62,468 bases of DNA from Clostridia bacterium (GTDB taxonomy: Bacteria > Bacillota > Clostridia > Christensenellales > Borkfalkiaceae), in contig JAGHIT010000048.1 of the NCBI GenBank assembly GCA_017887095.1, positions 73,253-135,720 on the forward strand, given 5' to 3'. The notes beneath the pieces were generated by a model that saw nothing but the letters and a program-made list of their open reading frames with translations, searched no databases and had not been told where the DNA came from. The first letter of the stretch is position 1; each line of letters begins with the position of its first letter. Shown piece after piece: positions 40,135 to 60,975 of the stretch. The translations under genes and the position numbers were made by a program.

Positions 40135-40144
40135 TATCTCGCTA

Positions 40145-40330
40145 AAAAGAGGAGCGGCAGAACATGAGTACCGCGCGCCGAGAAGATGGTTAAGGGATCT
40201 TTGCACAAAGCGCACGCAAAAGGGTATCGCCGCCGAAGCGCAGCAGGACCTTGGCGCTGCGCTGGGAGTACGGGAGAATACCCGCAGTCCTGTCACCGCC
40301 ACGGTGAAGCGCTTTTTCGGCAGAAGTTAC
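40145..40330 (+). promoter_or_regulatory. lysine riboswitch (L box)
   Basis: Conserved elements AGAGGAGCGG...ATGAGTA and AAAGGGTATCGCCGCCGAAGCGC...GCGCTGGGAGTACGGGAGAATACCCGCAGTCCTGTCACC, upstream of asd-dapA-dapB. Confidence 0.92.
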
Positions 40331-57173: not shown

Positions 57174-57241
57174 CAACGCCGCAGCGCTGTGTCAGCCGCC
57201 GGAAAAACGGTTTCGCTCTCGGAACGGCGGTCGGAGATACC

Positions 57242-57861
57242 CTGAAATCAAGCAATCAAAATTTTCCTTCAAATATGTAACGGAAACAGACTGTCGGTAG
57301 TTTTGCCTCAAAAACAATTGATTTTATTCTGCGTTTTTGGTAAGATATCTACTGTCAAAGCGGTCGATCGGCAGGTCGGTTCTTCACAAACCATTTGCAA
57401 ACGCCGCAGAATCTAAAAGGTTTTTCACAACATCCAAAACAAGCGATCAAAATTGGTAGAAACAAAAATTTGAAAAGAAAATTGTCGATTTTTCGGCAGT
57501 TTTATCACGGAAAGTTGGCTGAGCGGTCGAAAGCGGCGGTCTTGAAATGCGCTTGAAATCAAGCGGTCTAAACGCGCCCCTTGTTTCTACAACGGAAACG
57601 GAACTTTGGCTGATTTGCCCCGCAAGCGGTTGATTTTATCTCATATCTTGTGGTAAAATAACTACTGTGAAAGCGGTCGATTTGCAAGTCGGTTTTTCTA
57701 CAAACTGTCCATAAACGCCGTAAATTCTACAAACTTTTCTACAAATTGCAAATCAAGCAGTCTAAACTTGTAGAAACGCAAAACTGAATAAAAAATTGCC
57801 GATTTTTCGGCAATTTAAACACGGAAAGTTGGCCGAGTGGTCGATGGCACATGTCTTGAAA
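57242..57861 (+). repeat. ~310-bp imperfect direct tandem repeat (units ~57242-57547 and ~57550-57861)
   Basis: Colinear matches: TGAAATCAAGC, AACGGAAAC, TTGATTTTAT..GGTAA.AT, AAAGCGGTCGAT..GCA.GTCGGTT, AAACGCCG, GATTTTTCGGCA, CACGGAAAGTTGGC.GAG.GGTCG, GTCTTGAAA. Confidence 0.85.
57509..57547 (+). pseudogene. truncated tRNA-Ser copy (5' half up to the anticodon loop)
   Basis: GGAAAGTTGGCTGAGCGGTCGAAAGCGGCGGTCTTGAAA, then no 3' half. Confidence 0.8.
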
Positions 57862-57910
57862 ACATGAGATGTGAGAGCATCCGGGGGTTCGAATCCCTCA
57901 CTTTCCGCCA
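57823..57910 (+). tRNA. tRNA-Ser (anticodon TGA), CCA encoded
   Basis: GGAAAGT...CATGT-CTTGAAA-ACATG...GGGGTTCGAATCCC...ACTTTCCGCCA; long variable arm. Confidence 0.95.
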
Positions 57911-57955
57911 AACAGAGTCGCGTTTGAACCCGCGGCTCTGTTGTTTTTGTTTTTT
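57911..57955 (+). terminator. terminator downstream of tRNA-Ser
   Basis: AACAGAGTCGCGtttgaacCCGCGGCTCTGTTGTTTTTGTTTTTT. Confidence 0.85.
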
Positions 57956-58158: not shown

Positions 58159-60975
58159 CTATATATTAGTATATTTGTTTTTTCTTGCTAAAAATGCTTC
58201 CTTTCCTCCTTCAAGTATATTGCAAATATGCTGTTGAATGCCCCTTGAGCCTAAAAAAGTATCTTCTTCTATAATCGTAATGTTTTCAATAGCTCCAGAT
58301 CTATATTCAAACCTAAATGATTTATTATTTGTTTGTGCATTATTCTCAATTTGTTGATTTGCTACTATAATTTCTTCAGCATCACAACCAAGCACTAAAT
58401 TTGCATTGTGAGTAACTAATATAATTTGTCTATCCTTTTTTCTATCCCTTATAAACGAAACCAAATCGGACACTATGGACAAATTATCCAAATCATCCTC
58501 AGGCTGATCTAATAATATTGGACACTTAGATTCGTCGTGACTAATAAGTAGTTTTAATAATACTAACGCTTTTTTCCCTGGTGACATGTTTTCAATTTGA
58601 TCACCATCCATTTCAATAGTATATATAATATTGTCAAAATCACCTAAAAGTTCTTGCAGTGCGTGATTTTTATCATATTTGCTCAATAAAACTTTTTGCG
58701 TATCATTTTCTAAAACTGCGTTAATATAAGCTTTTTTGCAATCTTCATTAAACTCAGATTCTAAAATAAATTGTTCATTATCTAAGTCTTTGAATACGCC
58801 ATTATAAATACTTTTTAAGGCACTTTGTGTAAAAATTTTAGTGATGGTTTCCTTAAACAAGGATCTACGACGACGTTTTATTGCAACAATTTTAAAATTT
58901 TCATCGGTATCTTTAAATTGAATACTCTTAAATTCACTTTCAAATAAATCATATTCCGCCTCGCGTGATGTTGTTAATGAAAGAATTGAATTTATTAAAT
59001 CATCTAATGCTTTTCTTAAATTTTTTAGAATCTCGTATTCATCATTAATTTTTCTTAACTGATCCTCTTCAGTCCGTAAGTCTCCTTCAATCTTTTTAAT
59101 TTCTGCATTATTATCAATCATCGGTTTAAGCCCATTAATAATCTTCAAAACCCCGGCATATTCCACTTGCCGTGCATTTAACCGATCAGATATAAAATCA
59201 ATAATTTTAGTCTTTGATTTTTGCCATACTTGCTTCGCTTCTTCTGAGATAGTTTGATCAACATCTCTTACTTTCTTAGCAATCTCTGGATCCATTAAAC
59301 CCTCGATATTGATTTTAACAAAAACATCTTCACTGTCCTCGATTCGCTTTTTATCCGCAGTAAGTATTTGAATATTTTTTTCTAATAAAATTTTATCTTC
59401 AACAGCTTTGTCAAATCTAGCTATATCATCTGTAGATATGTTTAATGTTTTTGCTAAAGCTTCTTTTCTTTGGCGCAGCAATTCTATATTATTTTTAACA
59501 GATTCTATTCCACCTAAATCCTATATTAATAGAACTTGGGAATCAAATTCTTTCTTTTTATAAACCAATTCCAATATTTTCGAATCAATCTGCTTTTGTA
59601 TATCTATATTTTTTGCATCAAATGATCTACGCAGATCACAAAAATCTTTATTTTGACAAATAATATTTTCAATAATTTGATCTATTTCCGTCTTTTCCGC
59701 ACGGTCATCCATTAATTTATTAAGATATGATTGTGCAATATATACAATTTTCTTATCGTCGCTTGAGCCGTTGTATGAAATAGTCCCATCTTTCCAATGA
59801 ACTTTAACAGGAAATTCTAAAGGCTTTTTTTTACCATTATAAACAGTCTCCAGACGTAAAGAAACTTCTGATGAATCAATAGCTCGCGCTATATTTTGAA
59901 GCAGTATAGATTTTCCCGTAGATTTTAATCCAATTATACAAGTTAAATTTTGATTAATTGGAAGCATTTCGTTGGAGAAACGATGAGGCACAACATTATC
60001 TTCTATAACAACACCATCTATTATCCTATAATTGTCTACCCGATCCGCAGGGCAAAATTCCTGAATACGAACACGCTCAATCGGCTCGAAAAGAATTTGA
60101 CGCAGTCCTTCCCAAGTAGGATCAGCTTTTATCCAACAATATCTTTTTGTAGATCTCCCTTGATTATCAAGAGGTTCAAATATTGCATTATTAGTATGCG
60201 CATCACATCCCCAAACACACGGCATAATTTTACTAGGCTTTTTATCTTTTTCTCCCGAAAAAAACTTGATATCTGATGGATTAGCAGATAATATCAAATC
60301 AGAAGCCTTATAAAGATCTTTTCTATATTCTAATAAATCTACTAAATCCTGGGAAGGACTACTTGGATTACCTACAGCAGAGGCCCCATCAGTACTTTTA
60401 TTGGGCATTAGAACCAATACATTATTCTTGCATTCTGGATAATTATTAAATATTTTGATTATATCATCAAAATTTATATGAAATTCTTCAACTCCTTTTT
60501 TATATGCGCGTTCATCATCTAATCCGGGAACAAGTTCCTTACCATAACGGATCAAGTCATCTTTACGCGCACAATAAGTACTTGTTGCAGACTTGTAGAT
60601 TAAGTTGCTTAAAATAATAGTATCTACTCTATCCACAAAAGAAGGGTTAATTAAAAGATGTACATTCATTTTAACGCCATCTTTTAATGGTAAGCATCTT
60701 AACTCAATATTAGGAAATATAAAATCTATATTTTGATCAAGAATACCATCGGCTTTTATCTTCTTATAGTTTTCAATGGAAAAATAATCGGTAATGCCTA
60801 CTGCAGCAATTTTTCTTTGAGGATCACTTCCATCACCTATGTAATTTTTTATATCTTGATAAAACCTTGTCCATTTTTCATCGTTATCACCATGAAACTG
60901 GTCATTTTTCTTAGTATTCGGTGTATGAAGATGGAAATCCCACCTTCGCCATTCAGATCCCCTTTCAAAACTCAT
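58159..60975 (-). CDS. PHP domain plus SMC/ABC-like ATPase (TrlF-like), interrupted by one in-frame TAG at 59521-59523
   Basis: ORFs 59521-60975 (PHP HLHTP, Walker A GLKSTGKS) and 58159-59481 (MSPGKKA signature, PILLDQPEDDLDN Walker B, THNAN) are in the same frame, separated by ...VLLI-TAG-DLGGIESVKNNIE... Confidence 0.85.

Follow-up and report, generated by a model that had tools for sequence, protein, structure and literature searches.

A tRNA-Ser(UGA) locus of a Clostridia genome as the very probable left junction of two nested integrative elements that bring a replacement tRNA gene

How a tRNA gene comes to be preceded by repeated fragments of itself is the question raised by the window analysed here, a stretch of 62,468 nucleotides at the right end of a Clostridia contig that stops inside an integrase gene. 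Two colinear units of approximately 307 and 314 bp precede tRNA-Ser(UGA), the single tRNA identified in the region by ARAGORN. The tandem duplication described in the first-pass annotation is borne out by self-alignment: 57201–57547 aligns with 57509–57861 end to end with a gapped score of 147.5, compared to a maximum of 30 in 200 shuffles, and the direct repeats (D1, 162 nt, 75%; D3, 51 nt, 84%; D4, 49 nt, 71%) exhibit a spacing of 312–314. From 5′ to 3′, the region is composed of a decayed tRNA-Ser 5′ half, arm 1, a second tRNA-Ser 5′ half, arm 2 and the full tRNA (Table 1). The 5′ halves terminate in CTTGAAA, the unit boundary that the annotation had proposed. Its suspected third, decayed unit is present in part, as a third decayed tRNA 5′ half that opens unit 1, with no third arm; the total is three tRNA starts and two arms. 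The two stem-loops it described are stable (−11.8 and −13.5 kcal/mol, z approximately −6.5), and the promoter-like site of copy 2 is located as TTGATT-N18-TAAAAT by consensus match. Two integrative elements, one nested inside the other, very probably have their left junction here; such islands break up tRNA-Ser(UGA) and deliver a complete substitute gene.

Table 1. Features of the tRNA-Ser(UGA) region in the window; assignments to elements 1 and 2 are those proposed in the text
Feature	Coordinates	Strand	Basis
Decayed tRNA-Ser 5′ half, oldest target (host gene split by element 1)	57201..57238	+	In-register alignment with 57509–57547
Arm 1, left end of element 1, decayed, CTACAA count 0	57239..57508	+	Alignment with arm 2; motif count
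5′ half of the tRNA-Ser of element 1, split by element 2 in the anticodon loop	57509..57547	+	BLAST matches to positions 1–39 of tRNA queries; sequence
7-bp core CTTGAAA, anticodon loop, tRNA positions 32–38	57541..57547	+	Sole sequence common to both host halves in six reconstituted empty sites
Arm 2 (275 bp), forming the left end of element 2 and holding the promoter-like site and hairpin	57548..57822	+	Homologous arms at 20 other loci
CTACAA putative arm-type site 1	57587..57592	+	Fixed offset in 13 arms
CTACAA putative arm-type site 2	57698..57703	+	Fixed-offset comparison of arms
CTACAA putative arm-type site 3	57727..57732	+	Fixed-offset comparison of arms
CTACAA putative arm-type site 4	57739..57744	+	Fixed-offset comparison of arms
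Promoter-like TTGATT-N18-TAAAAT	57630..57659	+	Consensus match only
Hairpin before tRNA; terminator-like on the minus strand	57793..57816	+	Folding energy, sequence
Complete tRNA-Ser(UGA) brought by element 2	57823..57910	+	ARAGORN; 88/88 identical in L180 and L190
Terminator-like hairpin after tRNA	57911..57942	+	Sequence
Cargo: TrlF-family AAA-like ATPase in two reading frames (59521–60975, 58159–59481)	58159..60975	-	NCBIfam NF045780, model positions 1–455 and 510–943; each piece below the curated cut-off
Tyrosine integrase, N-terminus past the contig end	61378..62468	-	PF00589; 95–97% identical to 512-aa integrases of G491 and G503

BLAST analysis of the region against relatives identified tRNA-Ser 5′ halves ahead of full tRNA-Ser genes in several species, with differing spacers, and the junction GGTCTTGAAATGCGNTTGA is present in four genomes from other families of the order. 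A left-end pattern covering the core through the first arm repeat, CTTGAAATGCGN-N{31,32}-TTTCTACAA, was searched in 84,980 species genomes and gave 21 loci, of which 20 are tRNA-Ser junctions with a host 5′ half and an arm and one is a chance match. Several of these 20 records are apparently the same contigs as contigs of relatives that were searched separately. Conservation upstream of tRNA-Ser in related genomes, on which the first-pass annotation had staked its reading, is found at 20 other loci, nearly all in records named Clostridia (including Candidatus Coproplasma and Candidatus Borkfalkia) and from several families. Each junction consists of a host tRNA-Ser 5′ half, a 228–275-bp arm with CTACAA repeats at fixed distances, and tRNA-Ser. 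A complete tRNA-Ser(UGA) follows the arm at 12 loci and in the window, wherever the stretch is long enough, and the element tRNA is tRNA-Ser(UGA) in every locus with enough sequence. L179, from an archaeon, and L230, in a coding region, are chance pattern matches and not junctions, as are the many genus matches to GGCGGTCTTGWAAB outside tRNA context. The type B and D-loop tandem units of relatives were set apart from this phenomenon because they have no arms and no linked far 3′ half.

The 88-nt tRNA of the window is identical at 88/88 positions in L180 and L190, the 5′ halves of which are 82% and 95% identical to that of the window, respectively. L177 and L189 form another pair of this kind, with the same tRNA and differing host 5′ halves. 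The partial correlation of arm similarity with tRNA similarity is 0.52 given the host 5′ half, and that with the host 5′ half is 0.01 given the tRNA. As judged from these sequence comparisons, the arm tracks the tRNA and not the host, and the two have been transferred together. In L176 and L180 the 5′ half is itself that of an element-type tRNA, which indicates that nesting happened more than once.

The opposite end of the element is visible in relatives. BLAST with tRNA queries returned partial tRNA matches running from the anticodon loop to the 3′ end, and six genomes (G503, G491, G492, G487, G314 and G417) contain a host 5′ half, a complete element tRNA and a displaced host 3′ half, the last at the far end of the element behind further CTACAA repeats. 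When the host halves are fused at a single CTTGAAA, ARAGORN calls Ser(UGA) in all six genomes, with acceptor stem pairing of 6–7/7 for the host and 7/7 for the element tRNAs. For G503 the tRNA query was the joined host sequence itself, and its 100% match simply follows from how the query was built; what counts independently in this genome is that the two halves pair and sit at opposite ends of the element. In G487 (WSNM01000004.1, L265) the 5′ half, arm, full tRNA, cargo, right arm and 3′ half are encoded on one contig, in an element of 3,110 bp from core to core that lacks an integrase. This is the one complete element on a single contig, with the other five of the six two-ended cases spread over two contigs each. 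Most of the genomes are metagenome-assembled, and contig joins and binning therefore carry risk. Among 392 genomes of the order, the displaced 3′ half was found in seven convincing cases from five families; neither displaced 3′ halves nor the right end of the window's own element was found in its assembly, which is 83.6% complete and in which the contig ends in the integrase.

These far ends decide between the two origins that the first-pass annotation had offered, and they strongly favour repeated integrase-type events at the anticodon loop. Its other suggestion, a simple tandem duplication of the tRNA-Ser locus with loss of the 3′ half from the leading copies, would account for two colinear units of about 310 bp, but families that are far apart show the identical cut point and arm next to 5′ halves specific to each host, and in relatives the 3′ halves that should have been lost are present at the opposite end of the elements. 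Duplication is therefore rejected as exceedingly improbable; the truncated copy is best read as a split target and the full tRNA as having come with the element. Another candidate is a known kind of integration, the 5′-fragment class, in which attP carries a promoter and a tRNA 5′ half and the tRNA is rebuilt with the host 3′ half; the units would then be left over from elements of this kind. Elements of this class do leave 5′ fragments upstream of a full tRNA, and 159 of 3919 islands in Islander have a 5′ fragment (PMC4383910). However, the host 3′ half sits at the far end of the element and not inside the full tRNA, and the acceptor stems of the element tRNAs match within themselves, these tRNAs moving between hosts entire, 3′ half included. 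Contradicted in six relatives, rebuilding of this type is considered unlikely to a high degree.

Under the preferred reading of nested elements that supply a whole tRNA, a tyrosine integrase is predicted to recombine the 7-bp core CTTGAAA of the tRNA-Ser(UGA) anticodon loop with an attP flanked by CTACAA putative arm-type sites. Strand exchange would most likely occur within CTTGAAA, with the inverted repeat of the anticodon stem serving as the attB flanks; the likeness of a 7-bp anticodon loop and its palindromic stem to a canonical overlap and core site is established (PMC8371274). Integration would cut the host tRNA gene in two, with the 5′ half ending up on the left of the element and the 3′ half on the right, and the shared core would be too short for the host tRNA to be rebuilt. 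The element's own complete tRNA-Ser(UGA), with its leader, promoter-like site and terminator-like hairpin, lies just inside the left arm; it is predicted to take over and so to preserve function, and the host presumably depends on it. Since the element tRNA has the same anticodon loop and attB, it would offer a fresh target for a second element. Element 2 very probably landed in the tRNA of element 1 to give the order 5′ half, arm, 5′ half, arm and full tRNA, and the circular junction of an excised element would read right arm...RRACTTGAAATGCG...left arm. Besides the element's UGA gene, only CGA was identified among the serine tRNAs in the 83.6% complete assembly of the window's genome, so the element gene may be its sole tRNA-Ser(UGA).

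The left arms of 13 loci contain CTACAA at +38/39, +148–150, +177–179 and +189–191 after the core, and this set is complete in all 13 save for one missing site in L190; approximately 0.1 CTACAA per arm is expected by chance. Arm 1 of the window contains none. In the right arms of most type-A elements there is a pair of sites with 11-bp spacing, roughly 190 and 179 bp ahead of the core; variants such as CTACCA and CCACAA are found in elements of other families, and in G072 the pair is nearer (71 and 60). This layout on both sides of the core fits the arm-type DNA sites of an integrase, which would be expected to bind there. Apart from CTACAA sites at fixed spacing, the arm subtypes diverge widely. 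Between an excisionase-like gene and the right arm, the right end of the G503 element (L221) also contains three or more iteron-like copies of TCATATATCCATGGACAAAA and its variants.

The arms bear on the proposal, made in the first-pass annotation, that the conserved leader may itself act as an RNA, which would here be co-transcribed with the tRNA. This is consistent with the stable hairpin just ahead of the tRNA in both copies and the promoter-like site upstream, but the wide differences between arm subtypes argue against it, as do the similar sites on the far side of the element, where no intact tRNA is near. In L003 a similar hairpin precedes a tRNA-Ser that has no arm, and the hairpin therefore probably came with the tRNA gene. 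No Rfam match besides the tRNA was found in the region. Conservation in the leader resides in the CTACAA repeats, which keep constant distances from the core on either side of it; a functional RNA is a very improbable explanation for this. Elsewhere in the window, at 40139–40322, a lysine riboswitch is predicted (RF00168, 72.7 bits).

A tyrosine integrase (PF00589) is encoded in the window, G491 and G503, and the full 512-aa integrases of the latter two genomes are 95–97% identical to that of the window over the shared part. In G491 the integrase gene is located 0.8 kb from the element tRNA; in G503 it adjoins the right end and is followed by an excisionase-like HTH protein (HTH_17). The cargo of the window includes a TrlF-family ATPase in two pieces, its gene lying in two frames through a frameshift, decay or an assembly error. 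Other cargo comprises Hachiman (G079), Lamassu (G493), AbiL-like and KwaB-like proteins (G314), type I restriction (G009) and, in G487, a Lamassu-like remnant plus Vat-like and CatA-like acetyltransferases; taken together, the cargo is largely phage defence. No phage structural genes were seen in the cargo of the islands, which consists of defence and acetyltransferase genes as read in parts of the integrase-bearing elements and in the G487 element. IMG/VR contains no match to the left-end pattern, the integrases of phage records share less than 60% identity with the island integrase, and the carriers are apparently non-phage islands. Genes next to the G365 element encode a CRESS-type replication protein (PF02407 Viral_Rep) as well as an ATPase (L133, 2110–3138). 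Three fecal 'Bacteriophage sp.' records (L311, L313 and L314) encode integrases approximately 40% identical to this family, each followed immediately by a tRNA-Ser(CGA) gene; this may be a related system that uses a different serine tRNA.

Other repeats are associated with tRNA genes in these genomes. A separate repeat of approximately 60 bp, TAAGGAGC..GCGACGGAAYAGCGATYG..CRATCGCGTCA, lies inside tRNA loops, either in the T-loop region or, in Ser UGA, in the anticodon loop. It is found at tRNA-Trp (L287, L288, L278, L289), tRNA-Thr (L305), tRNA-Ser GGA (L284) and tRNA-Ser UGA (L300, L296, L301), where tandem units of about 147–161 bp duplicate the rest of the tRNA gene and one intact copy remains. 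Its core was matched in 26 of 103 genus genomes, and it has no Rfam match. Downstream of tRNA-Ser in L099 (1300–1900), L098 and L112, there are duplicated tRNA 3′ ends with terminators, and the GC-rich spacers between them start with an inverted copy of the tRNA 3′ end (GGTGAGGGATTCG...CGAATCCCTCACC).

It is tentatively proposed, with slightly more doubt than confidence, that an essential tRNA gene has come into the possession of non-phage defence islands and that the only UCA-reading tRNA-Ser of many gut Clostridia is element-owned. If so, an island would be hard to lose, and islands could stack, each replacing the tRNA of the previous owner, because the new tRNA gene is again a target site. 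The nested-element reading itself provides a route for repeated horizontal replacement of an essential tRNA gene and explains the pile-up of tRNA half-genes at the tRNA-Ser locus. The order host 5′ half, arm, full tRNA ... arm, host 3′ half is an exact search signature for such islands, which tools that assume a rebuilt target may misplace.

The closest counterpart is the tRNA-dependent lysogeny of actinophages, shown by experiment (Guerrero-Bustamante and Hatfull 2024, PMC10865867). The authors of that study raise the question of how widespread it is outside these phages and draw attention to prophage Lj965. No description of such integration in non-phage islands or in Clostridia was found among open-licence papers, and the present islands would extend tRNA-dependent integration, experimentally shown only in actinophages, to defence-carrying islands of Clostridia. 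Both systems feature a tyrosine integrase (in the window, G491 and G503, and absent from the 3.1-kb element of G487), an attB in a host tRNA gene (here the tRNA-Ser(UGA) anticodon loop), putative arm-type sites flanking the core, and a short core (approximately 10 bp there and 7 bp here) with the host tRNA not rebuilt. The actinophage systems are temperate phages of Actinobacteria, whereas the Clostridia islands have mostly defence cargo; in the islands, moreover, the tRNA lies directly behind the attachment arm and is itself a fresh target, and nesting leaves 5′-half fossils. The tDNA islands of Islander (PMC4383910) share the tyrosine integrase, tRNA target, anticodon-loop crossover and tandem arrangement, and are likewise marked by an integrase gene and a tDNA fragment, but their target is restored at one junction, whereas here both host halves stay fragments. 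With the pTN3-like archaeal integrases (PMC8371274), the islands would share a post-integration tRNA expressed from element DNA; those integrases, however, rebuild the tRNA via an attB in its 5′ half, whereas the islands supply the whole gene. Tycheposons, according to a secondary description (PMC10872708), are likewise cargo islands with a border tRNA and a tyrosine recombinase, but are described there with mostly metabolic cargo.
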